From positions 1-64,000 of IMG/VR virus record IMGVR_UViG_3300042503_002860: a DNA stretch of 64,000 nt. One strand, written 5' to 3'. The notes below the pieces were generated by a model, which made no database searches, was not told the origin of the DNA, and was given only the letters and a program-made list of their open reading frames with translations. A program made the translations under genes and the position numbers. The number at the start of each line of letters is the position of its first letter. Within the stretch, counting starts at the first letter, position 1. Below, one piece after another: positions 4,844-41,466 of the stretch. The DNA comes from a virus.

Positions 4844-5203
4844 CTAGCTGACTCTAATAAACCTTGGGTAATCACTACCATCAATTATTCCTAAAAACTC
4901 ATCTAATGGTCGCGCCCACATTTGTGGATAGTCAGGATCTACTCGCTGGTAAATTACATAATCACCTTCTAAGCAATCATCAGTATATACCTCATGCTCA
5001 TAGACTAAAGCAGTCTTATTGTTTTCGTAGGCTATGAGACATTCATAACCTGTTTCATGATGTTTAATACCGTCGGTTGTTATATCAAAATCATCTGAAT
5101 TTGTTCCTGAAATTGTCCGTCCAGTGACAAATAATATTTTGTAATTATTACCTTTGAAGTGTTGCCATATCTGTCCGGGTTGTGGGGTTCTTTCTAGTTG
5201 CAT
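4844..5203 (-). CDS. DUF1653-like protein, 119 aa
   Basis: Small protein with the pattern of DUF1653: GQIWQHFKGNNYKIL near the start, then a central YEHEV, later YVIYQ, and MWARPLDEFLG near the end. The function of that family is not established. The ATG at 5203 starts the frame. Its leader holds a decayed CRISPR repeat (5296-5330), and the two permuted tRNA-like elements lie upstream on the same strand, so one transcript could carry all three. Confidence 0.75.
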   Translation of the reverse strand: MQLERTPQPGQIWQHFKGNNYKILFVTGRTISGTNSDDFDITTDGIKHHETGYECLIAYENNKTALVYEHEVYTDDCLEGDYVIYQRVDPDYPQMWARPLDEFLGIIDGSDYPRFIRVS

Positions 5204-5295
5204 AATATAGCCCTTGAAATTGTGAAACCCTAGAGATATATCCTTTCTCCAGGGTCGTGTACTTATTTACCAAAGGTAATTTCAGCGCGTTATTT

Positions 5296-5330
5296 GTTAA
5301 ATCTAACTCTTTTAAAAAAGAGTATTTATT
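5296..5330 (-). repeat. Decayed CRISPR repeat with hairpin preserved
   Basis: The plus strand reads ATCTAACTCTTTTAAAAAAG and then AGTATTTATT. It aligns with the array repeat over its whole length, including both ends of the hairpin. The stem bases differ on both arms in a way that keeps pairing (CTCTTTT with AAAAGAG instead of CTCCC with GGGAG). It lies in the leader of the DUF1653-like gene. Confidence 0.6.
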
Positions 5331-5360
5331 TTTGTGAACTAACTTTTTGATTTCCGGTTG

Positions 5361-5461
5361 CCACTATTCATGCTTAGACCAGGCGATTTACCACTTATCC
5401 ACTTTGGCATAAAAGCCAAAGACGGGATTTGAACCCGTGTCTCCAAATGTCTTGATAGTGG
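5361..5461 (-). tRNA. Permuted tRNA-like element B (3' half before 5' half)
   Basis: On the minus strand a T-arm (ACGGG-TTCAAAT-CCCGT, 5438-5422) and the 3' acceptor strand CTTTGGC with discriminator T (5421-5414) come first. A five-base spacer (5413-5409) follows, then the 5' acceptor strand GCCAAAG (5408-5402) and a D-arm with AAGTGGTAAA. The two acceptor strands pair over all 7 bp. The outer flanks CCACTAT (5461-5455) and ATAGTGG (5367-5361) also pair perfectly, and AGAC/GTCT and GG/CC pair inside them. No contiguous anticodon loop exists, so no amino acid is assigned; a U33-based reading of the 5' half would give CUA, with low confidence. No CCA is encoded. Confidence 0.65.
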
Positions 5462-5481
5462 ACGTTGACGTTAGCCGCGCT

Positions 5482-5624
5482 GTTTTAACTTGAGTCTGTA
5501 AAATAGTTTAAATATTAAACTAAATCTAAAAAGCGTCTCTACCAGTTGGACTACCTGCGGGTAAGTCCGCAGGGTGGGATTTGAACCACACACTTTACTT
5601 TTGTTTTTAGACTCAACTTAAAAC
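5482..5624 (-). tRNA. Permuted tRNA-like element A (3' half before 5' half)
   Basis: Same order as element B: T-arm (GTGG-TTCAAATC-CCAC) and 3' acceptor CCTGCGG plus A (5573-5566), a five-base spacer, then 5' acceptor CCGCAGG (5560-5554) and a D-arm (GTCCAACTGGTAGAGAC). The acceptor pairs over 7 bp and CTTTT/AAAAG could form the anticodon stem. The outer flanks (5624-5609 and 5497-5482) pair over 16 positions with one mismatch, enclosing a small hairpin near 5502-5522. The T-stem has only 4 bp with an 8-base loop, so it may be one base short. The element starts two bases after the stop codon of the upstream gene. Confidence 0.6.
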
Positions 5625-5625
5625 A

Positions 5626-6357
5626 TTATACATCAAAAAGATAAGAAAAAACAGGTGTTGCTACATCTTTTTTCACAACTTCTATAGAGTTAGCTGTTTC
5701 CCTAGCAAACACAACTGCACGAGATAACAGATCAACTCGCTTGACTAATTCGTTTTGATGTGATCTTGTAATCGCCCCGGTAAATTTAACAGTTTTCCAT
5801 TTACCTTCAGGAATATCTTCGGATACTTCTTTAACCTGTGCAGGGTGTTCCTTAGTAGCGTCATACAAAACAACAGGCTTAACTACTCGCTTTGTTTTAG
5901 TAGTGTACTTTGGTTCTGTGGAATAGCAGTCTAACTGACTGTTTTTAATCCATTCCTCAGAAATATCCTGTATGGGTAAAGACAATACAAATGTTTTAAT
6001 ATCTGTAAGCTGTTTTTCAAGAAACAAGAGATAAGACACAGGAACAGCAGATAGAATGACACTATCACCAACAACGACATCAGCAATAGCTTGAGTATTC
6101 CCCCAATCCTGAGTAGCCGCGACATTAAACAATTCAGTTAACGCTTCTGAGAATTGTTTGATTAGATCCTCAGATTTAAGTTGTAAGTTGTTTTGCTCTG
6201 ATGGGTAGACAAAACCATCTTCCTGAGCAGGTTCATAAGTGCGAGAAATACCGGAAAATAGATCGGATTTTTGAGCTAATTGATAGATTTTAGTGGTGGC
6301 TTTCTTGGCATCAGCCTTCACGCTGTTAAGGATAGCAATTGCTTGATTAAGTTTCAT
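5626..6357 (-). CDS. Conserved phage protein of unknown function (DUF7873-like)
   Basis: A 243 aa soluble protein resembling a widespread family in bacteria and phages, with an N-terminal helix (MKLNQAIAILNSVKADAKK), then QLAQKSDLFSGISRTYEP, and a C-terminal helix with REXAN (VVFARETANSIEVV). I recognise the pattern but know no function. The ATG at 6357 fits the start pattern of the family. The permuted tRNA-like elements follow its stop codon directly and could share its transcript. Confidence 0.8.
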   Translation of the reverse strand: MKLNQAIAILNSVKADAKKATTKIYQLAQKSDLFSGISRTYEPAQEDGFVYPSEQNNLQLKSEDLIKQFSEALTELFNVAATQDWGNTQAIADVVVGDSVILSAVPVSYLLFLEKQLTDIKTFVLSLPIQDISEEWIKNSQLDCYSTEPKYTTKTKRVVKPVVLYDATKEHPAQVKEVSEDIPEGKWKTVKFTGAITRSHQNELVKRVDLLSRAVVFARETANSIEVVKKDVATPVFSYLFDV

Positions 6358-9675: not shown

Positions 9676-9906
9676 TGCTGCACTCCAGAGTCCTTACTAT
9701 ATTTAGTTTTCAAGGTTCAGTTGCGCGGATGGTATTATAATAGTCCATTTCAGAAATTGTGTCAAGGGGCGAAATAGCTGAAACCTTTGCTGTATAAGGT
9801 GCGCGGGTACTTATAATAGTAAAATGGCTGAAATTCTTATATATAAAGAATTTCAGCCATTTTATTCATTACTTATATTTTTACACCCACCCATCCGCGC
9901 AATTTA
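9676..9906 (-). promoter_or_regulatory. CRISPR array 1 leader, inverted copy of leader 2
   Basis: Contains a promoter on the minus strand: TTGACA at 9765-9760, 17 bp spacer, TATTAT at 9742-9737, so transcription starts near 9730 just before the array. The block from array to cas7 stop is homologous, in inverted orientation, to 15213-15437 (shared CCGCG, AACTGAACCTTGAAAACTAA, AAGTACCCGCGC and the hairpin). Confidence 0.85.
9821..9863 (-). terminator. Terminator of the cas5-cas8c-cas7 operon
   Basis: A hairpin of 18 bp (AAAATGGCTGAAATTCTT with AAGAATTTCAGCCATTTT) lies 40 bases downstream of the cas7 stop. It separates the cas transcript from the array promoter. A closely related hairpin follows cas3. 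Confidence 0.8.
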
Positions 9907-10764
9907 GGTTAATTTTGTTAGACTTACTCCGTTGGGCAAATCATTACTAAGTATCACCTGATAATCGCTAAAACTGCGAGGTACAGCAACGGTAGACTTA
10001 ATTTCCAGTTTATCAAATAACTCATGAACAGGCGCACTGCCATACTTATTATCGTGACTAAAAATATACAGACCACGACACGCCATAAGACCACGACTAG
10101 CAGAACGATCAAACTCCCAAGATTTAACAAGTGCATCCCACAATAATTCTAGGTCGCGTTCCGTTACGTGGCTGGCTAAACTAGGATTATAAAAAACGTA
10201 AGAACGATATAAACCATAGGGAATAGTTTCTTTACGACCCATAGTTTTGTTGTCTTTGTTTTCTTGGGCTTCAGTGGACGCACAGCGAGTAATGCAAACA
10301 GATTGAGGAAATATAGGATCAATGCTTCTAGCAAAGCTAAATTGTGACGCACCCCATACCTGTCCTGCTTGGTAGTCTCCAGTAGACATAACTGCACCAA
10401 ACATTCTTACATCATAGTAATTTTGGCGCATCCAATTATTAACAACGTCAACACCAGTTTTATCTTTTTTAGACTTCTTAGTTCCAGAAGCATCATAAGC
10501 CGCTTCTAAAGTATTGTTCAGAACCGATCCTGACTTAATAAAGATTCTGAATCTTTCTGGTTTTTGCTCATCAGAGGCAACCATTTGAATGTAGTTCCTA
10601 ACTTTACGTTTTAGACAAGCATCAGTTACCAAACCTTGATTAGTTTGAGGATCAATTCGTGGTTGATTACCAGCATCAGGATCACCGTTAGGATTACCGT
10701 CAAGACAATCAAATAATAGAATAGCGTCGTGTTTTTTGGTTGGGTCTAAATAAATCTGTGTCAT
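9904..10764 (-). CDS. cas7: Cas7 (Csd2), type I-C Cascade backbone
   Basis: The backbone subunit that coats the crRNA spacer in the type I-C Cascade, 286 aa (normal length). Signature near the N-terminus: FDCLDGNPNGDPDAGN (about 18-33), then PRIDPQT and GLVTDACLKRKVRN (about 46-57). Further conserved parts are VRMFGAVMSTGDYQAGQVWG and the SRGLMACRGLYIFSH region. Third gene of the operon, 18 bases after cas8c. The start ATG at 10764 is set by the family N-terminus. Followed by the terminator and leader 1. Confidence 0.97.
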   Translation of the reverse strand: MTQIYLDPTKKHDAILLFDCLDGNPNGDPDAGNQPRIDPQTNQGLVTDACLKRKVRNYIQMVASDEQKPERFRIFIKSGSVLNNTLEAAYDASGTKKSKKDKTGVDVVNNWMRQNYYDVRMFGAVMSTGDYQAGQVWGASQFSFARSIDPIFPQSVCITRCASTEAQENKDNKTMGRKETIPYGLYRSYVFYNPSLASHVTERDLELLWDALVKSWEFDRSASRGLMACRGLYIFSHDNKYGSAPVHELFDKLEIKSTVAVPRSFSDYQVILSNDLPNGVSLTKLT

Positions 10765-10782
10765 GATGTTTACCTTTTGTTA

Positions 10783-12438
10783 TTAGTCGTTTTCAGTTTC
10801 AGTAGTTTCTAATTCAGCTTCAGTTCTTTTAGCATAGAACTCACTTTTCATTTGCCACCAACCTTGAAAGAATAAAGCTTGAGACTTTGTATCAAGAATA
10901 TCTGGCAGACTAGTTATATCAAAATCCTTAAATTCTTCAGTTAATTTAGGTTTGATATAACCAACATTTTCTAAGTGATAACCCATGCAGTGACTACAGA
11001 TTTTAGCAAACACTTGGGAAGGTGTAGATGATAAAATTTTCAAGTTTTTCATCACTACAGTTTTATCCTCAGAAATCTTCTGTGATTTCCAATGTACAGT
11101 GTGAAATAAGAAAGATATTCTACCCAGTTTAAAGGCAGAATCTAAGGTTAATTGTCCAGTGGGATAACTCATGTTATTGCTTGCTAAGTACAGATATAAA
11201 CCTTGTGCTTTGACATAGCTAAATTGTCTTTCTGCACAGATTCTAGAAATAATCTTTTGGGCGTAACCATCCGATAAGGCAGATCCGAGTAGTGCAAATT
11301 TGGTAATTTCTCTAGCGATACGTGACTTGTAATTGTCCTTACCATCAGCAAAAGCACATTTCACTAACAACCAAATTGGACTAGCTTTAGTAGCGCAACT
11401 CAGTTGTATTTCTACAAATCTTTTTAGGGATGATTTGACCTGACCTAAAGTGGTTTCTGTCCAACTAGATAAAGATATTCTCCCAGCGTTACCAGTTAGG
11501 CAAGCTATGAAAAATAGACTTTCTTCCAGTTCCTCAACATTCAGATTTTGAGGTTTATTTGGCGTGGAAAATATAGTTTCTAAAGATGGGTTATCCCACA
11601 CTTCGGCATTTATACCTTCACTGGTTTCCTCACCCCAATAAACAAAAACCTGATTTTCTGTCTTGAACCTATTGTTAGGTGAATCAAGTAAAAAGTTAAG
11701 TGTCTTATGTGTTCTAATTGCGCTTCTAATACTCATAGAAGCATTAGCATTACCAGCTAATCCATAAGACTCAGTAACTTCTTTATCAAAACTTACTAAA
11801 GCTGCACCTGCTGACTGGGAATTAGGAACGCCTTTAATCTTTAGTGGAACTACAGTTTTTAAAACTAATGCCTGTTCTTCACCGGATATTAAACAAAGTC
11901 CTCGTGTTCCTTCATTAAGCTTCAAAAGGTCACTATTTGCCTTCTTAACCCACCATTCCTTAATAATAGGAATACTGGTTATTTGCTCACCATCTAGCAA
12001 AAAAACAAATACTGATTTAACCCAATCTTCTTTAACTTTAGGGTTAACCTCTTTTAGCTGCTTAAATATCTTAGAACTGTCAGTTGATGTGACATATTCA
12101 TAGACTTTCCTAACAGCTTCATGTTCAGTAGCATTAATACATTGCTGTAATAACTCTAAGTACAAAGGCTGTCTTTTTCGTCCACGATCACCAGCACCAA
12201 ATAAATATTCAGCACTATCATCTATTAAAAGAGGTTTTTCACCATTCCTTAACAGATCCGGTACTAAAAGTTTCTTACTTAATGATGGTTGTCCTTTACT
12301 TTTTGGTGTTTCTAAAGACGTTATACTACCACTACTTAAATCAATAGCATAGTTAACACCTTTAGACTCGTAACCGTAGGGAGATAGTAAATTTTGACTA
12401 TCTAAAAACTTGCCTAGTTTATCTAATTCGGACAGCAT
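10783..12438 (-). CDS. cas8c: Cas8c (Csd1), type I-C large subunit
   Basis: Large subunit of type I-C Cascade, 551 aa, which recognises the PAM and recruits Cas3. Csd1 features are the SQSAGAALVSFDKEVTESYGL segment (about 210-230), FLLDSPNNRF and VYWGEET, and the C-terminal helical part with WWQMKSEFYAKR. A CSHCMGY motif near 480 may be a partial zinc knuckle. It overlaps cas5 by 16 bp, which suggests coupled translation. In type I-C systems of other bacteria an internal start in cas8c makes a small Cas11 subunit; no clear internal RBS was picked out here. Confidence 0.93.
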   Translation of the reverse strand: MLSELDKLGKFLDSQNLLSPYGYESKGVNYAIDLSSGSITSLETPKSKGQPSLSKKLLVPDLLRNGEKPLLIDDSAEYLFGAGDRGRKRQPLYLELLQQCINATEHEAVRKVYEYVTSTDSSKIFKQLKEVNPKVKEDWVKSVFVFLLDGEQITSIPIIKEWWVKKANSDLLKLNEGTRGLCLISGEEQALVLKTVVPLKIKGVPNSQSAGAALVSFDKEVTESYGLAGNANASMSIRSAIRTHKTLNFLLDSPNNRFKTENQVFVYWGEETSEGINAEVWDNPSLETIFSTPNKPQNLNVEELEESLFFIACLTGNAGRISLSSWTETTLGQVKSSLKRFVEIQLSCATKASPIWLLVKCAFADGKDNYKSRIAREITKFALLGSALSDGYAQKIISRICAERQFSYVKAQGLYLYLASNNMSYPTGQLTLDSAFKLGRISFLFHTVHWKSQKISEDKTVVMKNLKILSSTPSQVFAKICSHCMGYHLENVGYIKPKLTEEFKDFDITSLPDILDTKSQALFFQGWWQMKSEFYAKRTEAELETTETEND

Positions 12439-13064
12439 AATACACCGTCCTTTAATATAAAATTGGCAAATTCAACAACAGATTTTCCTTTGGTAATCCC
12501 ATTTTTAGACTTCCAGGAAATTTTACCTTTCTTATCTGGAATAAAATGCTCTTGTTTAGGCATCATTCCCAGATCCTTAACACCTCTCAAAGTTGCGCTA
12601 GGGTATTCTTTTTCTTGGGGTAATCCAAAGTAAGCAATATACTCTCGACAGCCAAAATAAGGCTGTTTAAAACATTTACCTTCTTTGATTCTGTCAGCAA
12701 TAATCGCGTAATACTTATCAGGATTAAGGTTGTCATCTGTTAATTCAAAGCAAAAATCAATGTGATAGGCAACGTCTTTTAACAATATCTGAGTCCGTTG
12801 TGTACGGTCTTCCTCAATTGTCTTTAACTTACCCACATTGCGGTAACTTTGCTTTGACTTGATCATGTTCCGCATGACGGACAAATGTTTGATTGGCTTT
12901 AGTACAGAAATACTATTTATGGAATATTTTATCTCAGGTTTCCAAAAAATAGATTCTAGGATGCCAACAGCCGCAGTGAACGTCATAACTGGATAGGTAT
13001 GCGGTTCACTCTTGTACTCAGGTCTGGTAAATAGGGCAAAGTCACCCCAAACTTTTAATTGCAC
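12423..13064 (-). CDS. cas5: Cas5c (Csd5/Cas5d), crRNA-processing endonuclease
   Basis: Type I-C Cas5 replaces Cas6: it cuts the precursor crRNA at the base of the repeat hairpin and stays on the 5' handle. 213 aa. Family features: VWGDFALFTRPEYKSE (about 5-20), YPVMTFTAAVGILESIFW and ISVLKPIKHLSVMRNMI. No Cas6 is present in the window, as expected. First gene of the operon; the intergenic region to cas3 holds a perfect palindrome. Because many stray repeats occur in this element, Cas5c may also act on other transcripts. Confidence 0.95.
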   Translation of the reverse strand: MQLKVWGDFALFTRPEYKSEPHTYPVMTFTAAVGILESIFWKPEIKYSINSISVLKPIKHLSVMRNMIKSKQSYRNVGKLKTIEEDRTQRTQILLKDVAYHIDFCFELTDDNLNPDKYYAIIADRIKEGKCFKQPYFGCREYIAYFGLPQEKEYPSATLRGVKDLGMMPKQEHFIPDKKGKISWKSKNGITKGKSVVEFANFILKDGVLCCPN

Positions 13065-13092
13065 ACAATAAACCTTTGCTCTCTCTAATTTT

Positions 13093-13118
13093 GTAAAATA
13101 ATGTTAGTCTTATTTTAC
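13093..13118. promoter_or_regulatory. Palindromic operator candidate between divergent cas operons
   Basis: GTAAAATAA (13093-13101) and TTATTTTAC (13110-13118) form a perfect 9 bp inverted repeat with an 8-base spacer, in the 79-base gap between cas5 and cas3. A dimeric regulator could control both operons from here. Confidence 0.45.
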
Positions 13119-13143
13119 GTTGTCTCCTTATCATAATGTACTA

Positions 13144-15198
13144 ATGAGATATTTGTCAAGAGTCAATAAAAACAGTCTAAAACAAGAATTAAAACAGCAC
13201 TTAACTAACGTTGCTACAACGTCTAAAAGCATTGTACCATCTGAGTTTCAAGCAGTAGCCTATTATGCCGGGCTATGGCATGATCTAGGTAAGTATAGAG
13301 AAGAATGGCAATATTATTTATTACAACGGGTCGCAGGTGACAAAGTAAAAACTATATCACACGCTGCTCATGGTGCAGTATTAGCTTTGCAGTCACACAC
13401 AAGCAAGAAAGATCCGCCAGCTATGGCTTATATAATTGCCGGACATCATGCAGGCTTATATGCTAAAGACAAGTTAAAAGGAACTGAGTACAAACAAAAA
13501 GCAGAAGGTCTAAACGAGTGTTTATGCAACGCTAAAGATGAAATACCTGGTTTTATGCCGGACAAATTACCAGATATTGATTTACCTAAACTATCTAGGG
13601 AGTTTGCTATCAGGATGTTATTTTCTGTGGTAGTTGATTGTGATCGCACCGATGCCCAAATATTTGAATCTGGTAAACCACCTGCACAAATTAAAGACAT
13701 AATTCCTAACTTCCCTACATTCTCTCATACTTCAGATATTGGATTAATTAGGTCTAAGTTTGCAAATTATTGTATAAACGCAGCTAAATACAATAAAGGA
13801 TTTTTTAGATTATCCGGTGCTTGTGGAATAGGTAAGACCATTGCAAGTGCTAAGTTTGCTTATTTGCACAGTGATATTCATAATATGTCAGGAATAGTTT
13901 ATGTTAGTCCGCTAAAAAGCATTATTGAACAAACAGCTAATGTATACCGGGATCTGTTTGGTGATAATGCAGTATTAGAACATCATTCAGGATATGACCC
14001 TAGTGAAGCTAACCATGAAGAGTATAAGCTAAACACAGAAAGATGGGATAAACCAGTAATTGTTACTAGCGGTGTACAGTTTTATGAAAGTTTATTTGCC
14101 AATAGTCCCTCTAAGTGCCGTAAACTGCAAAGCTTAATCAACAAAGTGATCTTAATAGATGAATCTCAAACTATACCCACTCATTTAGTCCGTCCAACCT
14201 TAGATGTACTAAAAAGTTTAGTTAATGATTGGGGCTGTACTGTAGTTTTAATGAGTGCCACACAGCCAGCATTTAACAACCTAAAAAATGATGATATCAA
14301 AAACATTACAAATATAATCCCTGAACAAGATTGTATAGATTTTTTTGATAAACTTAACAGGGTTAACTATAAATTTAATCCGGCTTTGTGGGAAATAGAA
14401 AACCTAAAAGATGACGTGATTAATTCAGGAATAAAGCAAGGTTTAATAATAGTTAACACGACTAAACTAGCAAGAGACATCTATCAGGAATTATCTGAAT
14501 ATTTACCCTGTTATCATCTCAGTTCTAGAATGTGTCCCGCACATAGACAAGCAACATTAAACACAGTAAAGACGTTATTAGCTGACAATAAACCATGTTT
14601 TTTAGTTAGTACACAAGTAATAGAAGCAGGAGTAGACATAGACTTTCCTCAAGTATGGAGACAGTTAGCACCATTAGATGCAATTATCCAAGCTGCGGGT
14701 AGATGCAACCGTGAGGGTAAACAAGATAAAGGCAATGTAATAATTTTTAAGATGAAAGGTTTTGTTTCATCTGACTATAATAATCGTCAAAAAATCACAG
14801 AACAGTTATTACTACAAACGGATCTAAATATTAATATGCTTAACACAATTAATAGATATTTCCGTATTCTGTACAATGAAAACCATGATGGCGGATTAGA
14901 AATACAAAAGCTTAGGGAAAACTATAATTATCCCGAAGTAGCAGAAAAATATAAAGTTTTGGATGACACACAGATATCTGTAGTAGTTGAATATGGGGAT
15001 AATCAACAATTATTAAATGAGTTAAAAACTAAGGAATTTTTAACTAACAATGACTGGAGAAAATTACAGAAATTTACAGTCAATTTACCGCAAAGTATGG
15101 TTGATTTTGAGGAAGTCAATGGAGTAAAATATTGGATAGGGGAGTATAATAATAATGTTGGTTGTCTACCCTTCGAGTATAAAGTTTTAATAGCATAA
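13144..15198 (+). CDS. cas3: Cas3, HD nuclease-helicase
   Basis: Nuclease-helicase recruited by Cascade to degrade target DNA, 684 aa from the chosen start. The HD domain has LWHDLGK (HD at 46-47), SHAAHG and AGHHAG. The helicase has Walker A GIGKT (about 229), DESQ in place of DEAH (about 339), SATQP (about 371), STQVIEAGVDIDFP and QAAGRCNREG (about 515). All catalytic motifs are intact. The frame extends to a TTG at 13120, but the ATG at 13144 is preferred. Divergent from cas5; no cas1, cas2 or cas4 follows. Confidence 0.97.
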   Translation: MRYLSRVNKNSLKQELKQHLTNVATTSKSIVPSEFQAVAYYAGLWHDLGKYREEWQYYLLQRVAGDKVKTISHAAHGAVLALQSHTSKKDPPAMAYIIAGHHAGLYAKDKLKGTEYKQKAEGLNECLCNAKDEIPGFMPDKLPDIDLPKLSREFAIRMLFSVVVDCDRTDAQIFESGKPPAQIKDIIPNFPTFSHTSDIGLIRSKFANYCINAAKYNKGFFRLSGACGIGKTIASAKFAYLHSDIHNMSGIVYVSPLKSIIEQTANVYRDLFGDNAVLEHHSGYDPSEANHEEYKLNTERWDKPVIVTSGVQFYESLFANSPSKCRKLQSLINKVILIDESQTIPTHLVRPTLDVLKSLVNDWGCTVVLMSATQPAFNNLKNDDIKNITNIIPEQDCIDFFDKLNRVNYKFNPALWEIENLKDDVINSGIKQGLIIVNTTKLARDIYQELSEYLPCYHLSSRMCPAHRQATLNTVKTLLADNKPCFLVSTQVIEAGVDIDFPQVWRQLAPLDAIIQAAGRCNREGKQDKGNVIIFKMKGFVSSDYNNRQKITEQLLLQTDLNINMLNTINRYFRILYNENHDGGLEIQKLRENYNYPEVAEKYKVLDDTQISVVVEYGDNQQLLNELKTKEFLTNNDWRKLQKFTVNLPQSMVDFEEVNGVKYWIGEYNNNVGCLPFEYKVLIA

Positions 15199-21181: not shown

Positions 21182-21362
21182 CCTAAAAATAGAGCAACAA
21201 TTCCAGATAGCATCTTTTAAACAGCAAGTAGCACAAATGTCTAGGGAACAGTCTCAAGACCTCTTAGTTAAACTGTATGAACAGATGCTAGTACAAGAAG
21301 TAACATACAAACAATTACTAAAGCATCAATGGGGTTTAGCTGATGCTATTAAAACAGAATAG
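21174..21362 (+). CDS. nblA: NblA, phycobilisome degradation adaptor
   Basis: NblA is a small cyanobacterial adaptor that presents phycobiliproteins to Clp protease. This 62 aa protein has the family pattern throughout: LKIEQQFQIASFKQQVAQMS near the start, then DLLVKLYEQMLVQE and a TYKQLLKHQWGL C-terminal helix. ATG 21174 gives normal NblA length; a GTG four codons upstream is possible. NblA genes are known from freshwater cyanophages, where they are thought to free amino acids and change light capture during infection. It points to a phycobilisome-containing host. Confidence 0.95.
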   Translation: MNNLKIEQQFQIASFKQQVAQMSREQSQDLLVKLYEQMLVQEVTYKQLLKHQWGLADAIKTE

Positions 21363-21368
21363 GATAAT

Positions 21369-21398
21369 AAAAGCACTTATTATAAGTGCTTTTATTTT
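21369..21398. terminator. Bidirectional terminator between nblA and the next gene
   Basis: Perfect hairpin AAAAGCACTTA, loop TTA-type, TAAGTGCTTTT. It sits between convergent genes and has T-runs on both strands. Confidence 0.85.
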
Positions 21399-22011
21399 AA
21401 TCAACCGGGTTAGTACCATAGAAAAATTTATCACTATTTTCTGATGCCCACTTACCAGAAGATTCGCTCTTGTACTTGTGAGTATGTATTTTGTAACCTG
21501 GATTACCTGCTAGGGGTTCAGTTATAAAACTCGGATCAAACCAAACTATCCTGTTATTTGGTTGTATGGCAAAACAACCGTTATCTAATTTTAAAACATG
21601 ACCGCATTTATGCTCACTTGGATCTTCTGCCCAGTCTCCACTGATCCAATCAATAGTAAACATATATTCACCACCGTACCATTTCCCGTCTTTGAGAATA
21701 GTTTTACAGCGTAGTTCATGAAGATATGAATAAGCTATTGCACAGGGTTCATAACTTAGGCAATCCCACAATTGCAACCAATCCAATGGTAGTTGATCAC
21801 AGTCCTCTTTCCAAACTAAGGCATGAATTGGGACTCTAGCAAATTGCGCTCCTTGATTCGTCATTAAATTGAAACCGACAGATCGGCCAGGAATAGAAGT
21901 CATGCCAAACACTCGTACGGGAACAAAGCCTGTTTGTTGCACGTCCCAATCGTAAAGAAATGACTTGTTAATCAAACATTTAAAATGAGGAATATCAATA
22001 CTAAAAGTCAT
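21397..22011 (-). CDS. Conserved phage protein of unknown function, 204 aa
   Basis: Pattern VPVRVFGMTSIPGRSVGFNLM, then LPLDWLQLWDCLSYE and YGGEYMFTIDW resembles proteins of unknown function found in large phages. No catalytic motif is evident. Convergent with nblA. Confidence 0.82.
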   Translation of the reverse strand: MTFSIDIPHFKCLINKSFLYDWDVQQTGFVPVRVFGMTSIPGRSVGFNLMTNQGAQFARVPIHALVWKEDCDQLPLDWLQLWDCLSYEPCAIAYSYLHELRCKTILKDGKWYGGEYMFTIDWISGDWAEDPSEHKCGHVLKLDNGCFAIQPNNRIVWFDPSFITEPLAGNPGYKIHTHKYKSESSGKWASENSDKFFYGTNPVD

Positions 22012-22123
22012 AATTACGTTATTGCAAAATAAATATTATTATACCTGTAATGTGTCTAAACAGAATGATTACAAAAATACCCATCAACACATAGCTGATG
22101 GGTATTTTATTGCTGTTTAATGA

Positions 22124-22411
22124 TTAAACATGATTGATAGCAAATATCAAGTTTTCTAAGATAGCTTTGCTAAGGCCTATATCATTAATGTTAACTTTAA
22201 TTGGGATTGCTTCAACACCATCGCCTGTCATATTGATAAATATGTGCTGCATTTCCTCATCATAACCTAATTTAATACCTATAGGTTTATGATAGTGAAA
22301 CCAAGTGCCATGGTTGCTGTACCAAAAATCATTGTTAGCATTTAAAATACTTTCTAAAGCATACAGATTTAATTTGAAAGGTACGGGTAATTTGTCAGTT
22401 GCTATTGCCAT
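22124..22411 (-). CDS. Hypothetical protein, 95 aa
   Basis: Unrecognised. Predicted mixed alpha/beta; contains NANNDFWYSNHGTWFHYHKPIGI and ends with a helix (LSKAILENLIFAINHV). Last gene of a minus-strand run with the three upstream genes. Confidence 0.7.
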   Translation of the reverse strand: MAIATDKLPVPFKLNLYALESILNANNDFWYSNHGTWFHYHKPIGIKLGYDEEMQHIFINMTGDGVEAIPIKVNINDIGLSKAILENLIFAINHV

Positions 22412-22843: not shown

Positions 22844-23062
22844 TCATTCTGAAAATTCAAAACTTTTACTGCCTAATTCTTCAAAAATTTCATAGGCTGT
22901 CTTTAGACCCACATCATAACTTTGTCTGTTGAATCTGGCCTGCCTCCAACCCATGGCTTTAATTCTATTTTTAGGTACAGGTAAGCCAGCATTAAAATCG
23001 GCATAACCTTGGCTAAAAAGATGATCAATCTTGTTTTTTGTTGCTGTGTTTGTCATATTCAA
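22844..23062 (-). CDS. Hypothetical protein, 72 aa
   Basis: Small basic protein with YADFNAGLPVPKNRIKAMGWRQARFNRQ. The spacing of G, P and W recalls ribosome-modulation-factor-like proteins, but the match is too weak to name. Overlaps the stop of the upstream fusion gene by 4 bp. Confidence 0.65.
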   Translation of the reverse strand: MNMTNTATKNKIDHLFSQGYADFNAGLPVPKNRIKAMGWRQARFNRQSYDVGLKTAYEIFEELGSKSFEFSE

Positions 23063-25086
23063 TAATTCCTCAAAATCAATTCTTTACAACCTTCCCGACT
23101 GCCTAATTTACAGGCAATATTTCGACTTGCTGACACTTCTGTTTTTTGCAAAAAGTGTAAATCATCCCAGTAGTTAGTATTGCTACTGCTCAAGATTATT
23201 TTAGCTTCTTTGCTATTTTGCAACCTGATAAACTCAGCCAGCATTAAGTTATCAGCCAGACCCCATCCATCTTTACCATATCCCACAAAATTAGCTGTGT
23301 GACTTGCTGGTATATATGGCGGATCTAAATAAACCAAAGTATCACTATCAATAAAAGCAGAACACTCTTGATAGTCGCTTGACTTGATAAACACATTGCG
23401 TAGTTTTTCTGAAACTAACTCAAGGTTGTGGCTATCACATATAAGAGGATTGTCATATTTACCAAAAGAAGTATTAAAGCCACCATCAGATTTTCTCACC
23501 CTCCATAAACCATTAAAGCACGTTCTGTTTAAAAAGATAACAATAGCTGCACGGATAACATGATTAGTAGAATAACCATCATAATTAAAAGTTTTAGCTT
23601 CCACATTAAACTTTTGCCGCACAGCCTCAAAATACTTTCTGCGGTCGTCATCTGACCTCTGAAGGTAATCATCTTGAACTTTAGTCAGAATACTAATTAA
23701 CCGAGTAACATCCTGTTGAATGACTTTATAAGTGAGCATTAAATCCAGGCTATTATCGTTAATTAGCACCTCCTGAATATTGTCCTCACTATTAAGTAAG
23801 TGGAACAATAAAGCTCCGCCACCAACAAAGGGTTCACAGTATTTATAGAACTTAGGTAGGTCTAGTGTGAGAGCATTTAATAGCTGTGTCTTACCACCTG
23901 CCCATTTTAAGAAAGGCTTTGCTCTTGAATTAGTTTTTATCACAGATTTGTTCTCCTGTTTTATCTCTAATGCAGTTGTTTTTATCGTATGTTCTAATAC
24001 TGGAAGCTTAATGTCTAAATAACTACTAACATTCTGAGGATTTTTATTTTTCCTAGGTTTGAAAACGGAATCTTCATAAGGTAAGTTCAATATTCTCTTA
24101 TGTTCTGATACTATCCAATCATTTGTATATGTTTCAGGATAGCAAAAATCATCTTTTAATTTTTCCTCTATTTCTGTAATCTCCTCTTGAGTAATATAAC
24201 CAAGATTTAGTAGCTTTTGTTTATCTAGTTTTTTCCATATACTTCTGCGGTCTTCTATATAAATAGCCCCAAAGTTTTTAGTCTTTTTACTGTGTATTCG
24301 TCTACAGTTTCTTAACTTTTCTAAAACCTCTCTAAATTCTAATGCGTTTTCCCGTGTTTCATCTTTTTTTAATGTATTAATAGTGATGACTGGACACATT
24401 AAGCAACCCATTCTTAAACTCCCCTTCTCATCTGTAGCTTGTGAGTAAGTTGATTTCATTAGATTAAAAACACCATCATACAAAACTGTCCCATCAGCAT
24501 AAAATATTAAATCCCAGACATCACAGTTTCTCAAATTAATAATAGGATCATGTGAGTTTTTTATTTTATCAATACCACATTCACCTGTATTACATGGTGT
24601 TTGTAGTCTAGTGTCTCTAGAAGAGCTTTCTCCTAAATGTCTTCCTGTTAATGCTTGACTGCCTTGTTTCTTTCTTTTGTTTTGTGGAGATACTTTGAGA
24701 TAGTTTGTACACCACCTGTTACGCCAATCTGGTACAGGATACCCTTTGACAAACTGGTAATACCAATAGCTATAATCGGGATCTAATTTATAGAAATTTA
24801 CAATACCTTGTAAAAAATTTTCTATTCTACTTATTACTGTATAAAGAGATTTTGTTTCTAATCTTGTATCAGCAAATAGCACTTCAAAATTATCTGTGTT
24901 CTTATTATATAATTTCTTCCAAAGCAAAAATACTATAAGTAGTGCATGGGAATCTTTACCACCACTAAAAGCAAGATGGTATTTGTTACAAGGACTCAGA
25001 TTGTCAATATATGTGATAGCATCTAAAACTTTAGTTAATAAAGGCAAATCTTCACATTTTAAAATTTTTTTTAATTTATCTATCAT
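23059..25086 (-). CDS. PAPS-reductase-like / Dam-like adenine methyltransferase fusion
   Basis: A 675 aa two-domain protein. Residues about 1-330 form a PAPS-reductase/DndC-type ATP pyrophosphatase domain with SGGKDS (41-46), RWCTNYLKVSP and cysteine motifs (NTGECGI, GCLMCPV). Residues about 385-675 form a Dam-type N6-adenine methyltransferase with FLKWAGGKTQLL, EPFVGGGALLFHL and DPPYIP (about 583). The TTG at 25164 is the -35 box of the promoter, so ATG 25086, preceded by AAGG, is the start. PAPS-reductase-like proteins serve sulfur activation in sulfate reduction and DNA phosphorothioation. A joint DNA-modifying role is inferred, not shown. Confidence 0.88.
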   Translation of the reverse strand: MIDKLKKILKCEDLPLLTKVLDAITYIDNLSPCNKYHLAFSGGKDSHALLIVFLLWKKLYNKNTDNFEVLFADTRLETKSLYTVISRIENFLQGIVNFYKLDPDYSYWYYQFVKGYPVPDWRNRWCTNYLKVSPQNKRKKQGSQALTGRHLGESSSRDTRLQTPCNTGECGIDKIKNSHDPIINLRNCDVWDLIFYADGTVLYDGVFNLMKSTYSQATDEKGSLRMGCLMCPVITINTLKKDETRENALEFREVLEKLRNCRRIHSKKTKNFGAIYIEDRRSIWKKLDKQKLLNLGYITQEEITEIEEKLKDDFCYPETYTNDWIVSEHKRILNLPYEDSVFKPRKNKNPQNVSSYLDIKLPVLEHTIKTTALEIKQENKSVIKTNSRAKPFLKWAGGKTQLLNALTLDLPKFYKYCEPFVGGGALLFHLLNSEDNIQEVLINDNSLDLMLTYKVIQQDVTRLISILTKVQDDYLQRSDDDRRKYFEAVRQKFNVEAKTFNYDGYSTNHVIRAAIVIFLNRTCFNGLWRVRKSDGGFNTSFGKYDNPLICDSHNLELVSEKLRNVFIKSSDYQECSAFIDSDTLVYLDPPYIPASHTANFVGYGKDGWGLADNLMLAEFIRLQNSKEAKIILSSSNTNYWDDLHFLQKTEVSASRNIACKLGSREGCKELILRNY

Positions 25087-25135
25087 TTTATTGTACCTTG
25101 CATCTTTGTGATATTTGATAATTTGATTGTTTATA

Positions 25136-25164
25136 ACAATAACACACTCATGATTTAATGTCAA
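25136..25164 (-). promoter_or_regulatory. Promoter of the fusion methyltransferase
   Basis: TTGACA (25164-25159), 17 bp spacer, TATTGT (25141-25136) on the minus strand. It decides the start of the fusion gene, because the apparent TTG start is the -35 box. Confidence 0.75.
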
Positions 25165-25228
25165 GCGTAATCTGGTAAAATACTAAAATATGTTGTATAG
25201 TATTTTAAAATGTTTCTAATGTAAACCA

Positions 25229-25786
25229 GTGCTGAAAATCAAAAAACTGTACCCAGACTCTAAAATCCCTACTCGTGCTTATCCTACAGACAGTGGTTTA
25301 GATTTATACGCTTATTTACCTGATGGTGAGATCAAGTTATTGCCAGTTATTAGCAAGGGTAAAACAATCACAGTAGAGGACATACCAGGTGAAGGTAGAT
25401 TTGTAGATATTGAGGATAGGGTAATTCAACAGTTCTCAGTCACTATTCCCACAGGCATTGCAATAGAACTACCACAAGCTAGAACAATAGTTTTAGAGTC
25501 AGATAATACCCGACGTACTTTAGTTGAAGAAGCTCAAATCCGAGGTAAATCAGGATTAGCAAGTAAGGGAATAGCTGCACATTGGGGGACAGGAGATAAT
25601 CCTTATGTGGGTGAATTAAAAGTTATTTTAACTAACATTGGGTCGACGGAACCATTTGTTATTTCTCACGGAATGAAAATAGCACAATTAGTAATTCAAA
25701 CTGTGATAATTCCGGAATTAAAGATAGTGGAAGAATTAGCAAATACAGATCGTGGTGTAAACGGTTTTGGGAGTACAGGAATATAA
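25229..25786 (+). CDS. dut: dUTP diphosphatase (trimeric dUTPase)
   Basis: Hydrolyses dUTP to dUMP, the substrate for the downstream ThyX, and keeps uracil out of DNA. 185 aa with motif I (YPTDSGLDLYAYLP), motif III (RGKSGLASKG), motif IV (GELKVILTNIG) and the glycine-rich C-terminal motif V (RGVNGFGSTG). About 40 residues longer than the common core owing to insertions between motifs I and II. Starts with GTG at 25229. Its stop overlaps the thyX ATG (TAATG). Confidence 0.95.
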   Translation: MLKIKKLYPDSKIPTRAYPTDSGLDLYAYLPDGEIKLLPVISKGKTITVEDIPGEGRFVDIEDRVIQQFSVTIPTGIAIELPQARTIVLESDNTRRTLVEEAQIRGKSGLASKGIAAHWGTGDNPYVGELKVILTNIGSTEPFVISHGMKIAQLVIQTVIIPELKIVEELANTDRGVNGFGSTGI

Positions 25787-26610
25787 TGTTTCAACCAACA
25801 GCTAAAGTAATTTGTGATTCCGTCAATGTAATGACAGGTGATCGCTTAACAACTATGATTATCAAATATCATCGGTTTATACATAGCGAAATTTTGGCAC
25901 ATAGATCACTTTCTCGTAACAGTTCGAGTAGTCGTGCTATACCAATTAATAAACTAATTCAAAACGTAATTGATGACGACGTTTACCCCTTGCATTGGGG
26001 TAAAAACCAAAAAGGTATGCAAGCCTTTAAGGAAATATCAGAATCAGACATTGAGCAAGCTAAGAGATTATGGGAAGTAGCAAGGAATAACGCTATAAAT
26101 TCAGCAAGACAACTAGCTGATTTAGGAGTTCATAAACAAGTCGTAAACAGAATATTAGAACCATTTAGCACGATCACCGTCATAGTTTCAGGTACAGAAT
26201 GGTCTAATTTTTTTAAACAAAGATGTCATCCTGATGCACAACCTGAAATAAGAATTTTAGCTAATGAAATGTATAATGCTTACAATAATAGCAACCCTAG
26301 AGAACTAGCTGTTGGTGCTTGGCATATACCATTAATAGATGACTGTGATGATTTAATTGGGATTAGCCAAGCATTAAAAATATCTGCGGGTAGGTGCGCT
26401 AGAGTTTCTTATTTAAACCATGAAGGTAAAAGAAACATTGAGGACGATATAGCACTACATGATAAATTATTAAGTTCAAACCCTAAGCACTTATCACCAT
26501 TTGAACATCAGGCAGTGCAAACAAAATCAGAATATTTTGGTAACTTTAGAGGCTTTAAACAATACCGTAAATTCATAGAAGAAAATGACCAGACATACCT
26601 CAGATATTAA
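25786..26610 (+). CDS. thyX: Flavin-dependent thymidylate synthase ThyX
   Basis: Converts dUMP to dTMP with FAD and NADPH. 274 aa; the ThyX motif appears as HRSLSRNSSSSR (39-50). Conserved parts include GVHKQVVNRILEPFSTITVIVSG and the NFFKQRCHPDAQPEIR segment that binds dUMP and FAD. Coupled to dut by a TAATG junction; overlaps the next gene by 26 bp. Part of a dNTP operon with dut and tmk. Confidence 0.97.
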   Translation: MFQPTAKVICDSVNVMTGDRLTTMIIKYHRFIHSEILAHRSLSRNSSSSRAIPINKLIQNVIDDDVYPLHWGKNQKGMQAFKEISESDIEQAKRLWEVARNNAINSARQLADLGVHKQVVNRILEPFSTITVIVSGTEWSNFFKQRCHPDAQPEIRILANEMYNAYNNSNPRELAVGAWHIPLIDDCDDLIGISQALKISAGRCARVSYLNHEGKRNIEDDIALHDKLLSSNPKHLSPFEHQAVQTKSEYFGNFRGFKQYRKFIEENDQTYLRY

Positions 26611-26899
26611 CAGTCATATCTTCAATATTTCTTATCACCAAATTAGTTTTTATCTACAAGCTAATGGATGGGTACATGAAAAAACGATAGCTGATATAGA
26701 TATTTACTCACTTGAGTTTGGACAATCAGCTTGTAAAATGCTTTTACCTCATAATGATCAATCTGAAGATTATAAACATAGATTAGCTGATATCTTGTTA
26801 ATTCTTCAAATGACACAATCACCATCTTTAGAAGATATCAGTTGGCAAATTAAAAAATTTTGTACAGACTTTATAACACAGGAACAGACGTATGAATAA
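26585..26899 (+). CDS. Hypothetical protein, 104 aa, in the dTTP operon
   Basis: Unrecognised, helical. It lies between thyX and tmk and overlaps both (26 and 8 bp), so it is surely cotranslated with them. The pattern of LADILLILQMTQ and ISWQIKKF could be a small interaction module. Function unknown. Confidence 0.8.
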   Translation: MTRHTSDINSHIFNISYHQISFYLQANGWVHEKTIADIDIYSLEFGQSACKMLLPHNDQSEDYKHRLADILLILQMTQSPSLEDISWQIKKFCTDFITQEQTYE

Positions 26900-30869: not shown

Positions 30870-33800
30870 ATGCCAGTAGTTAAATTTTCTCTGAATCAGT
30901 ATCGTGCTTACTTTGACTTAGTTAAGCCTCAATATATTAGCTGGGATTTCTATAAAAAATATATAGACAGAAAACCGCCATTTGGCGAGTTAGGTGCAAT
31001 TATATATTTGAGAACTTACAGCCGATTTATTAATGAACTAAAACGCCGTGAACTATGGCAAGAAACCGTATTAAGAAACATTGAGTACAGCCTAAGCTTA
31101 GACACTGTAACCCCATTAGAGGACAAATTTACAGAAGCTAAAGCGTTATTTGATATGATGTTTAACTTGCAGGGTTTTCCTGCGGGTAGAAGTCTATGGA
31201 CAGCAGGATCACCACAAACTGAAAAAGATTCATCCAGTAATTGGAACTGTACATTTAAGACTGTAGACAGTTTAAGCGCGTTTAGTGAGATTTTTTATTG
31301 GTTGTTAATTGGTGCTGGTACTGGTTTTAGTGTTGAGCAAAAATATATTTCTCAACTACCAGAATTTAATGCAAAAGTCCATGTGATTCATGAAGACTAC
31401 AACTATCAAAAGAGACTTGATGGTACTTTTGTTAATATCACAGATTCAGAAAGTAGTCCGCAGTTCCTAACAACTTACACCGATTTTGTAGAGACTTCAG
31501 AAATAATTAGACCTGACAATGAGTTTGTTAGACATCTAGATGATAACCACAAGATAGTTAGATTACAAATTGGCGATAGTAAAGAAGATTGGTGTAATGC
31601 TTTGAGAATATTTTTAAAAGCATTGACTAATAAAAATGTAGAGAAAATCTACATTAATTATGATCCTATACGTCCGCAGGGAACGCCTATCAAAACTTTT
31701 GGCGGACGTGCTAGTGGGCATAGAACATTATTAGAAATGTTTGATAATATTTCATATGTTCTTCAAAGATGTTCAGGTGTTTTAGCCTCTATTGACTGCT
31801 TAGATATCATAAATGCTTTAGGTTATAACGTAATGGCAGGTGGTGTACGTCGCTGCTTACCTAAAGGTACATTAGTTCATCTTCAAAATGGACTAGTACC
31901 AATTGAAAAAGTCAAAGTGGGTGACATAGTAGCAACATCAAAAGGCTATCATCAGGTGACTGACTTTGTTTATCAAGGTATTCAACCAATATCCCAAATT
32001 ACAACGCAAGCGGGCATTTTTGAATGTACAGATAAACACAAAATAGCGATCATTTCTGACACTCAAGGTAACTATATCTGGAAGCAAGCTAAGGATATAC
32101 AAATTGGTGACAGAATGGTATTTGTTAAAAATACTATTCCAGGTACAGAAACTAAACTTCCAGAATTTGACTACATTTATCCTGAACATAGTACAACCTG
32201 CAAAGCAATAACCATACCGGATATGAGTGATGATATCGCCTATTTGCTAGGTTTCTTACACGGAAATGGTTATGTTAGACTAACATCTTCAGAAGGAAAT
32301 ATCAGCTTTGCAATAGCTCCTGATTTACCACAAATAGTAGAAAAAATTGACAGTATTATTAAGCAGTTCGGTGTTCATACAAAATTACGTGAACCCCAAG
32401 AAAATGATAACTGCTATAAGCTAGTAATTAAGTCAAAACAATTAGCTACTTTTTTAAGTCAGTTTAAGTTATCTAATCAAACTTTAGTTATTCCCGATCT
32501 AATTCTTCAGGGTCTTGATTCTTATAGAGCAGCATACACGGCAGGCGTATTTGATGCCGACGGTTCAGTTAAAAACAGACCTATTACTGTTGCCACAAGT
32601 GTTTATCCTGAATTTTTGAAACAGTTGCAAGTAGTTTTATCAAGTTTAGGCATCTTAACTACTTTAAATAAAAAAAGAGATGCTAAAGGCAATTGGAAAG
32701 CACTTCACATACTTAATCTGAAAGGGGAAATGTTTATTGATAGATTTGAAAGACAAGTAGCATCATTTTCACTTAAGTTTAGAGACAATAGAAAATCTGC
32801 AAGATCACAAAATGATTTTGGTTTTCCGTCCAGGATGGTCACTTCTGATAAAGTTAAGTTTGGCAGTCAATGGGATGCTAAATGTAAACAGATGACTGTA
32901 GCTAGACTTGAGAAAATCACAGGCATTGAGGTTTATAGAGTCCCTGTAGAAGTGTTAAGTATCAATCACGCGGTAAGAAATGATTACACTTACGATATCA
33001 GTGTGGATTCAGTAAATGAGTTTATTGCTGATACTGGTTATTTAGTACATAACACTGCTGAACTGGCTCTAGGCGATAGTTCAGATGAATCCTTTAAGAC
33101 CGCAAAAGTAGGACTGTTTAGTGATCCAGCTAAAGCAAGAGTTAAGGATCTAAGAACAATGTCTAATAACTCTACAGGCGAATATGATCATCCTGGAGTA
33201 GATGCAATTAATAAGACATTTGAATGTTTAGAAACTCAAGGTGACCCAGGTTTTTGGATTATTGGAAATAGTCAGAAATTAGCAACATCACCCGTTAAAG
33301 GCACGAATCCATGTGCTGAAGCGGCTTTAGACGACAAACAATCATGCAACTTAACGACTAAGAACGTTAGGGCTTGCATATACTTTGATAAAAAGTCTGG
33401 CAAGTGGGAGTATAACTGGGAACTAGGGAAAAAAGTCATTGAACTAATTACCCGACTAGGAACTCGGATCACACTAGCTAAACAATGGCATCCAGAATGG
33501 GACAGAACACAGAAGAGAGATCGTTTGCTTGGAGTTTCTATGACAGGCGTAATGGATGCCTTTGATCTACTTGGTTGGGATTATGAGCAGCAAAAGTATT
33601 TCTTCCAATGGTGTAAGCAAACAGCGATAAAAGCCTCAGACGATTACCACGACTATTTAGGAATTAACAGAAGTGCTAGAGTCTGTTTAATGAAACCAGA
33701 AGGAACAATCAGCCTACTACCAACCGTTTCTAGTGGTATCCATCGCGCTTATGCTCCTTACTATTTACGTCGCGTTAGATTTAGTAAATCAGATCCTTTA

Positions 33801-36363: not shown

Positions 36364-36405
36364 ACCAATATATAATTAATCTACCAACCAATTATAGCAC
36401 TGATT

Positions 36406-41463: not shown

Positions 41464-41466
41464 AAA

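Follow-up and report, generated by a model that had tools for sequence, protein, structure and literature searches.

Bacterial Y RNAs reportedly mimic tRNAs, a likeness attributed to work by Chen and colleagues in 2014. Two-piece tmRNA places its acceptor piece first and has the intervening stretch removed, and the tRNA-like structures of plant viruses sit at the 3' ends of genomic RNAs. According to PMC11472068, the bacterial Y RNA of structure 6CU1 superposes on tRNAs via circular permutation, such that the layout of a permuted tRNA-like module is already known. By its Rfam consensus, the bacterial Y RNA (YrlA, Rfam RF02553) carries a permuted module of T-arm, acceptor hairpin and D-arm on an extended stem, and it is found in phages as well. 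Two further papers propose Y RNAs with an Rsr protein in Listeria phage CKA15 (PMC12282133) and place TROVE in a subset of jumbo phages (PMC7824862). PMC11472068 also ascribes tRNA mimicry with a permuted strand order to the plant-virus structures of TYMV and BMV, but classes these as non-circular permutations. PMC3978253 mentions the two-piece permuted form of tmRNA and describes the permuted tRNA genes of red algae and archaea, in which the 3' half comes first, a short intervening sequence separates it from the 5' half, and the flanks pair.

The window considered here is a stretch of 64,000 nucleotides from the viral record IMGVR_UViG_3300042503_002860, which is 111,652 bases long. Direct reading of the sequence places two modules of T-arm, acceptor hairpin and D-arm, termed A and B, at 5361-5624 on the minus strand, each with paired outer flanks. 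The initial annotation took these for two separate permuted tRNA genes and knew of no case in bacteria or phages. Bacterial Y RNAs already carry a circularly permuted tRNA-like module, however, as stated in PMC11472068, and a rotated tRNA-like element in a bacterium does not of itself point to a permuted tRNA that serves translation. The two elements recur together as a conserved pair, probably within a single RNA, downstream of a DUF7873 gene in bacteria and phages. The window most likely holds not two permuted tRNA genes but one two-headed, tRNA-mimicking RNA linked to DUF7873. That A and B are the two heads of a single trans-acting non-coding RNA of ~400 nt, complexed with the DUF7873 protein, is considered fairly probable. 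Each head would present the acceptor and elbow half of a tRNA in circularly permuted order, with a longer helix in the position of the anticodon arm that would join it to the remainder of the molecule; further on would come a 3' hairpin whose loop is often NGGAYAY. The features of the locus are as follows.

5626-6357, minus strand: DUF7873 gene (PF25283), 243 amino acids, the proposed protein partner (Pfam E 1e-91)
5227-5624, minus strand: proposed two-headed RNA, from the arrangement in homologues, with inferred ends
5609-5624, minus strand: head A, outer stem, 5' strand; 15/16 pairs with 5482-5497, flank duplex z -3.4
5604-5611, minus strand: head A, inner stem, 5' strand TCTAAAAA; 8/8 with TTTTTAGA at 5525-5532, by inspection
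5574-5591, minus strand: head A, T-arm of 5 bp with a bulged U
5567-5573, minus strand: head A, acceptor 3' strand CCTGCGG; 7/7 with 5554-5560
5561-5566, minus strand: head A, acceptor-loop spacer ACTTAC (A73-C-T-T..), from the class pattern of spacer ends
5554-5560, minus strand: head A, acceptor 5' strand CCGCAGG, from sequence reading
5534-5553, minus strand: head A, D-arm, from sequence and the R1 alignment
5525-5532, minus strand: head A, inner stem, 3' strand TTTTTAGA, pairing with TCTAAAAA
5482-5497, minus strand: head A, outer stem, 3' strand, pairing with 5609-5624
5334-5478, minus strand: head B domain, full length to model R2 (1-143), 62.3 bits, E 1.6e-15
5470-5474, minus strand: head B, helix Px, 5' strand CTAAC, pairing with GTTAG at 5339-5343, by inspection
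5455-5461, minus strand: head B, helix Py, 5' strand CCACTAT; 7/7 with 5361-5367
5422-5438, minus strand: head B, T-arm, from sequence, R1 and R2
5415-5421, minus strand: head B, acceptor 3' strand CTTTGGC; 7/7 with 5402-5408
5409-5414, minus strand: head B, acceptor-loop spacer TTTTAT, from sequence reading
5402-5408, minus strand: head B, acceptor 5' strand GCCAAAG, from sequence reading
5385-5401, minus strand: head B, D-arm, from sequence, R1 and R2
5361-5367, minus strand: head B, helix Py, 3' strand ATAGTGG, pairing with 5455-5461
5339-5343, minus strand: head B, helix Px, 3' strand GTTAG, from sequence and R2
5227-5255, minus strand: 3' hairpin with GGATAT in the loop, paired by eye, the probable 3' end

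A gap of 422 nt separates DUF7873 from the next listed ORF (4844-5203), and the proposed RNA takes up almost all of it. The RNA adjoins the gene: DUF7873 ends at 5626 and the RNA would start at 5624, with the outer stem of A one base on. The permuted order of T-arm, acceptor and D-arm given by the initial annotation is borne out for both modules on the minus strand, as are acceptor strands paired at all seven positions (CCTGCGG/CCGCAGG in A, CTTTGGC/GCCAAAG in B) and outer flanks that pair 15/16 between the 16-mers 5624-5609 and 5497-5482 of A and 7/7 between CCACTAT and ATAGTGG of B. The spacers, described there as five bases long, are of 6 nt. For the T-stem of A, given there as 4 bp, a reading with 5 bp and a single bulged U is available; the R1 alignment treats the extra base as a one-base insertion. 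The inner stem of A sits in place of the anticodon stem and shares three bases with the outer stem, making the two alternatives. The homologous helix to Px is 94.7% paired in 39 sequences, and those to Py 90-91%. The 3' hairpin of the window is ACCCTGGAGA-AAGGATATA-TCTCTAGGGT at 5255-5227, again paired by eye.

Linear use of ARAGORN finds no tRNA in the window, and Rfam gives no match there at gathering level. When the elements are circularised and introns allowed, ARAGORN calls a tRNA in A and in B, calls made on the native sequences alone, and the acceptor, T and D arms of the rotated elements are complete. Searches at the DNA level gave no match among plasmids and one weak match among phages, to a Gordonia tRNA junction. 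A strict scan for the module returned none in 200 Markov-1 random windows; the same scan finds B in the window but misses A because of the bulge in A.

A degenerate pattern derived from A was used to scan viral sequences and gave 144 matches among at least 120 loci, 129 of which overlap at least one ARAGORN tRNA and are junctions of tandem tRNA genes. Covariance model R1 was then made from 13 other viral elements with A and B excluded; its members were picked for acceptor pairing, so the acceptor covariation in it is partly a product of selection, and one of them, L068, is itself linked to DUF7873. R1 scores 38.0 bits on A (E 2.1e-10), a value that is partly non-independent because A gave the search pattern behind R1, and 37.2 bits on B (E 3.8e-10), which is independent. 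The only other matches in the window up to E 10 are two of 6.2 and 5.8 bits, the next best having an E of 2.4. The pair might be what is left of a tandem tRNA array, in which the 3' half of one tRNA lies beside the 5' half of the next: phage tRNA arrays look similar at their junctions, and R1 scores these junctions too, so that the model does not discriminate where such arrays exist. In-register acceptor pairing separates the two, with 7/7 in none and 6/7 in four of the 129 tRNA-overlapping junctions, against seven pairs in ten, six in four and four in one of the 15 matches that have no tRNA call (L052 and L069 belong to this class of 15 but were omitted from R1). The strong covariation described below also speaks against an array remnant, unless the alignment is wrong, and such an origin is extremely unlikely.

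The RNA read as two-headed recurs next to relatives of the same gene. Profile scans found DUF7873 homologues in 73 phage records, at 319 viral loci and at 576 or more genome loci, and the best 80 of the 319 viral and the best 80 of the at least 576 genome relatives were kept. Counted among the 80 viral loci is L148, a second record of the same virus (IMGVR_UViG_3300042503_001836, 118,553 bases), which is 100% identical over 14,093 bases of L002 and therefore adds no independent evidence. The titles of the relatives kept name Nostoc, Cylindrospermum, Streptomyces, Actinomadura, Ktedonobacteria, Planctomycetaceae, Myxococcota and others, and the gene and RNA recur as a pair in chromosomes (cyanobacterial, actinobacterial and others) as well as in phages. 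By the strict scan, at least one module lies no more than 900 nt downstream of the DUF7873 stop at 53 of 80 viral and 70 of 80 genome loci (123/160), and none lies in the 960 nt upstream of the gene at any of the 160 loci. Tandem modules 80-170 nt apart are present at 47/80 viral and 50/80 genome loci, as compared to 0/166 antisense and 2/166 upstream controls.

This proximity could also be that of a cis-acting element, either a 3'-UTR or a tRNA-sensing structure, with DUF7873 or the gene after it under its control, given that at many loci no more than ~100 nt separate the DUF7873 stop from the start of the first head on the same strand. Such a role is unlikely: in L202 and L272, two of the 75 loci positive for model R2, the RNA lies on the strand opposite to DUF7873, and a check of a few genome loci shows varied neighbours (AI-2E transporter, resolvase, M1 peptidase, LRR, Schlafen and DprA), which suggests a stand-alone cassette of two parts. 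A scan of the window for promoters and terminators picked out nothing resembling a promoter, and its single terminator-like site is actually the T-arm of B; this outcome neither supports nor excludes a separate transcript. The two-headed RNA is taken to be transcribed and bound by the DUF7873 protein.

Seven of the 73 phage records were fetched. In Mimi, Phendrix, NiceHouse, PA-SR01, Pam2 and a Microcoleus phage, DUF7873 is followed by ~400-1200 nt with no annotated gene, interrupted in PA-SR01 by a single annotated CDS of 99 nt. R1 detects both heads in this gap in Mimi, Phendrix and NiceHouse; in PA-SR01 and Pam2 the first head is detected there by R1 and the second by R2. The R1 and R2 matches of the Microcoleus phage are weak and ~2 kb downstream. 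Rhizobium phage RHph_TM21B encodes a distant homologue (28% identity) and has only one head by the scan, with an R2 score of 46.2 bits. Among 12 loci searched with Rfam at gathering level, only tRNAs, one tRNA-Sec and one tmRNA were returned, none of them inside the gap after DUF7873.

NCBIfam, PADLOC and PHROGs returned no family for the DUF7873 of the window, and a profile search of solved structures gave a best E of 0.079. An AlphaFold model (pLDDT 89.8, pTM 0.63) has no Foldseek match under E 0.001, the best being E 0.12 in the PDB and E 0.0022 with a TM of 0.22 among viral models; VIA-align of the model pairs it with 3kdq, of unknown function (Z 9.3, rmsd 8.2), a match that is not relied on. 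The predicted structure thus has no confident fold match, from which novelty of the fold does not follow. The building block of the RNA is already known, but in a search of openly licensed PMC papers DUF7873 appears in none, and no description of a two-headed RNA, nor any known system with two such heads or with DUF7873, was found.

Alignment of 46 non-redundant loci gives as the strongest covarying pairs the T-, acceptor and D-stems of both heads together with two outer helices and the Levitt 15:48 tertiary pair of head 2; the outer stem of head A is absent from the strongest pairs. The second domain was treated separately in an alignment, A5, of 39 head-2 domains with the window left out, over which 37 pairs were scored. 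In A5, 91.1% of 1434 cells are paired, and the weakest helix is the one resembling an anticodon stem, at 66.8%. Covariation is 0.815, whereas 500 shuffles give 0.250 (sd 0.013). Slid versions give no more than 0.177, a control that favours the structure used because this was derived from a larger alignment containing the same sequences. The Levitt pair is U-A in 25, C-G in 13 and unpaired in one of the 39. Across loci the flank-duplex signal is modest, with a mean z of -1.7 for 65 first heads and -1.9 for 64 second heads.

Model R2, built from A5, matches B of the window over its full length with 62.3 bits and A partially with 35.0 bits. It was tried on 83 of the 127 loci outside training (58/62 viral, 20/60 genome and 5/5 named phage), of which 75 score at least 50 bits (50 to 123). 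Once the second record of this virus, three loci that nearly duplicate training loci and one member from each of eight near-identical pairs are taken out, 71 loci remain, and 65 of these score as high. The eight loci under 50 bits are L144, L152, L153, L157, L206, L212, L237 and L269, of which L212 ends soon after the gene. In 14 whole genomes with DUF7873, seven of which supplied training loci, the first 150 candidates per genome were scored; in 13 a single match exceeds 60 bits and lies at the DUF7873 locus, no other match in any of them rising over 51.7 bits, and in the fourteenth, G040, the best match of 34.5 bits is also at the DUF7873 locus. A further 198 genomes were picked, regardless of DUF7873, from the phylum of the Actinophytocola genome G038, itself a training locus, and only 16 candidates per genome were scored there, with stricter filters. 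Eight pass E 1e-9. Six of the matches are full-length, all with DUF7873 in the fetched locus, and these six include G038 itself, L313, which is training locus L261, and L326, which is 92% identical to training locus L292; the other two are partial matches of 53-54 bits at loci that lack DUF7873.

The ends of the acceptor loops were compared in non-redundant sets of 65 loci, for which shared 8-mers served to thin out 99; neither set includes the window, because the bulge in A fails the strict scan. These ends resemble those of tRNA. Base 73 is A in 47/64 first heads and U or G in 63/65 second heads, base 74 is C in 50/64 and 51/65, base 75 is a pyrimidine in 53/64 and 61/65, and base 76 is A in 32/64 and 35/65, respectively. 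Exact CCA is found in 19/64 first and 26/65 second heads, where chance would give ~1 each. On the other side of the loop, base -1 is U in 31/64 and 46/65, and base 1 is G in 47/65 and 57/65. Spacer length runs from 4 nt up to the 30-nt limit of the search, as if the middle were dispensable. CCA is absent from both window spacers, ACTTAC and TTTTAT, and bases 74-76 of B are all T. The heads have no single aminoacylation identity, given that their discriminator and acceptor sequences vary. The 3' hairpin, with at least 8 bp and a GGAYA loop, occurs in 31 of the 65 non-redundant loci, where shuffles would give 2.0, ~100-180 nt past the start of the 5' acceptor strand of head 2, and was not found in the other 34.

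After rotation, ARAGORN takes most of the homologous elements for tRNAs. At 99 related loci, the window not among them, ARAGORN calls a tRNA in 96 first and 93 second elements after rotation and in 0/99 of each after shuffling; together with the R1 scores, this upholds the earlier claim that the modules are beyond chance, and across the family the comparison of rotated with shuffled sequence, which the initial annotation had named as a possible refutation, comes out in favour of the modules. True permuted tRNA genes, whose halves a phage or host ligase would join into translating tRNAs, would share these rotated calls, the permuted order, the paired outer flanks and the tRNA-like ends. They are nonetheless very improbable here. 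No anticodon is conserved, and a contiguous anticodon loop with U33 is absent from the window, as had already been conceded; RtcB is found in neither of the two records of this virus; and the outer helices of the second head, which covary, persist from phylum to phylum. Decoding by the heads, and with it two tRNA genes for translation, is unlikely because longer helices replace the anticodon arm and because ARAGORN, when made to assign an anticodon, comes up with a very diverse set: 37 kinds in its calls on 65 first elements and 35 in those on 65 second. The two-headed RNA differs from the permuted tRNAs of red algae and archaea in this lack of anticodon identity and in being a conserved pair beside a protein gene in bacteria. 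What is kept are the features that enzymes read on the upper half of a tRNA, namely its elbow, acceptor stem and ends.

Without rotation, 24 of the 99 homologous regions, such as those of Streptomyces L256 and L279, receive tRNA calls from ARAGORN, mostly of ~87 nt. These are treated as spurious, and genome annotations may contain false tRNAs at Streptomyces DUF7873 loci.

With its acceptor piece before its 5' piece, the RNA also resembles permuted two-piece tmRNA, and it might be a variant of it with a tag reading frame in the linker. To the tmRNA-like gene order can be added the NCCA encoded in part of the family. Against it, the two-headed RNA has a proper D-stem and two heads, and tmRNA models do not match the window beyond a short T-arm match of 15.1 bits in B. 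All 24 unrotated ARAGORN calls are tRNA and none tmRNA, Rfam places no tmRNA in the gap at any of 12 loci, and Phendrix has a separate tmRNA of its own. The G3-U70 pair, which marks alanine identity, is present in just 5 of 39 second heads, and the window has G3-C70 in A and C3-G70 in B. A tmRNA variant is hence given very little credence. The layout also brought to mind a permuted group I intron around exons, which was rejected as the flanks are too short and the Rfam scans list no intron.

The closest likeness is to Y RNA. The two-headed RNA resembles it in architecture but lacks its defining partner gene. One rival reading is that it is a Y RNA whose Ro60 (TROVE/Rsr) partner is supplied by the host, with the module as the tRNA mimic and the outer stem as the Ro-binding stem. 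The order of the module matches that of Y RNA, including the circular permutation noted above for 6CU1, and Rfam YrlA aligns full length, if weakly, to A (17.7 bits, E 1.7); an element beside TROVE in L032 reaches 38.6 bits, and both are below the gathering level of 69 bits. The Ro-like family phrog_850 matches 7 of the 15 other viral records with modules (five strong, two weak) and none of 15 tandem-tRNA controls, but it also matches 8 of 14 control genomes including E. coli, and the two weak matches may be other vWA proteins. TROVE itself occurs in 2/15 module records and 0/15 controls, DUF7788 in 3/15 module records, and several of the 15 viral modules are probably phage Y RNAs.

For the window, such a Y RNA is improbable. 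The conserved neighbour is DUF7873, in the place of a Ro gene, and TROVE, DUF2828, DUF7788 and phrog_850 are absent from both records of this virus, each of which may be a fragment. On Ro-linked viral loci R2 scores 31-43 bits, mostly over partial matches, as against the 50 to 123 bits of 75/83 DUF7873 loci. The RNA is also set apart from Y RNA by its two heads, by the 3' hairpin with its GGAYA loop in about half of the loci, by the NCYA-like ends of the acceptor loops and by a YrlA score far under the cut-off. A Y RNA with a Ro60 of the phage's own was set aside, with no Ro-type gene in either record.

Among the viral modules, L105:2977-3025, L057:11222-11270 and L031:1786-1837 seem by eye to have a full anticodon arm in the 3' part, with loops CTTCTAA, CTGAAAA and CTTTTAA, respectively, and an opening between the D-arm and the anticodon arm. 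The records of L105 and L057 have Ro-like matches and that of L031 has none; all three modules are possibly four-arm Y RNAs. Those of L027, L031, L069, L070, L096 and L119 go with neither a phrog_850 match nor DUF7873, for which other partners, fragments or, for L069, chance can be listed. In Listeria phage A511 (L007), a DUF7788/DUF2828 protein (23733-25253) and RtcB (21192-22403) are encoded near a match to ROOL RNA (26196-26747) that is sub-threshold (87.5 bits, cut-off 99.1) and beside a tRNA array.

In the proposed mechanism of the two-headed RNA, the heads would be recognised by enzymes that read the tRNA elbow and acceptor, namely RNase P, 3' processing enzymes, CCA-adding enzymes and possibly EF-Tu or synthetases. 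The acceptor loops may be cut by the enzymes of tRNA maturation to give an RNA of several base-paired pieces with one or two free acceptor ends, much like two-piece tmRNA. The suggestion of the initial annotation that RNase P and 3' processing could leave pieces joined by base pairs fits the conserved ends of the spacers, going by the sequences; the window spacers have no CCA, such that a CCA-adding enzyme would be needed there. With these mimics the complex could then attract tRNA-handling enzymes or compete for them, in much the way that Y RNA serves Ro60. A more specific version is tentative and somewhat doubtful: that DUF7873 and a double-headed mimic, cut into a three-piece RNA with two NCCA ends, form a widespread and as yet unnamed complex that engages or titrates tRNA and the translation machinery in bacteria and phages. 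It would be one particle with two tRNA-like heads, for example a decoy against tRNA-targeting nucleases.

The locus matters because several phyla and many phages conserve this structured RNA, with its two copies of the acceptor and elbow half of tRNA, beside a gene family that has no known function. If the proposal is correct, DUF7873 gains a partner and permuted tRNA mimicry reaches beyond Ro60 and Y RNA. Whether RNase P and CCA-adding enzymes of bacteria act on acceptor loops in permuted form would also become directly testable.

The window contains several further features of note. Type I-C CRISPR-Cas genes occupy 9904-15198, with Cas5d, Csd1 and Cas3 identified by Pfam and a Cas7-like ORF (9904-10764) by eye, and self-matches indicate repeat-rich stretches on both sides at ~7.4-9.7 kb and 15.2-17.0 kb. 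The remaining observations were made by eye. An ORF of 701 amino acids (23059-25164) resembles a fusion of a PAPS-reductase-type domain with a Dam-type methyltransferase, and one of 1146 amino acids (30870-34310) resembles a ribonucleotide reductase with an intein. A pair of ORFs at 35956-37593 is like IS200/IS605-type TnpA and TnpB, and two adjacent ORFs at 40360-42873 resemble sliding clamps.
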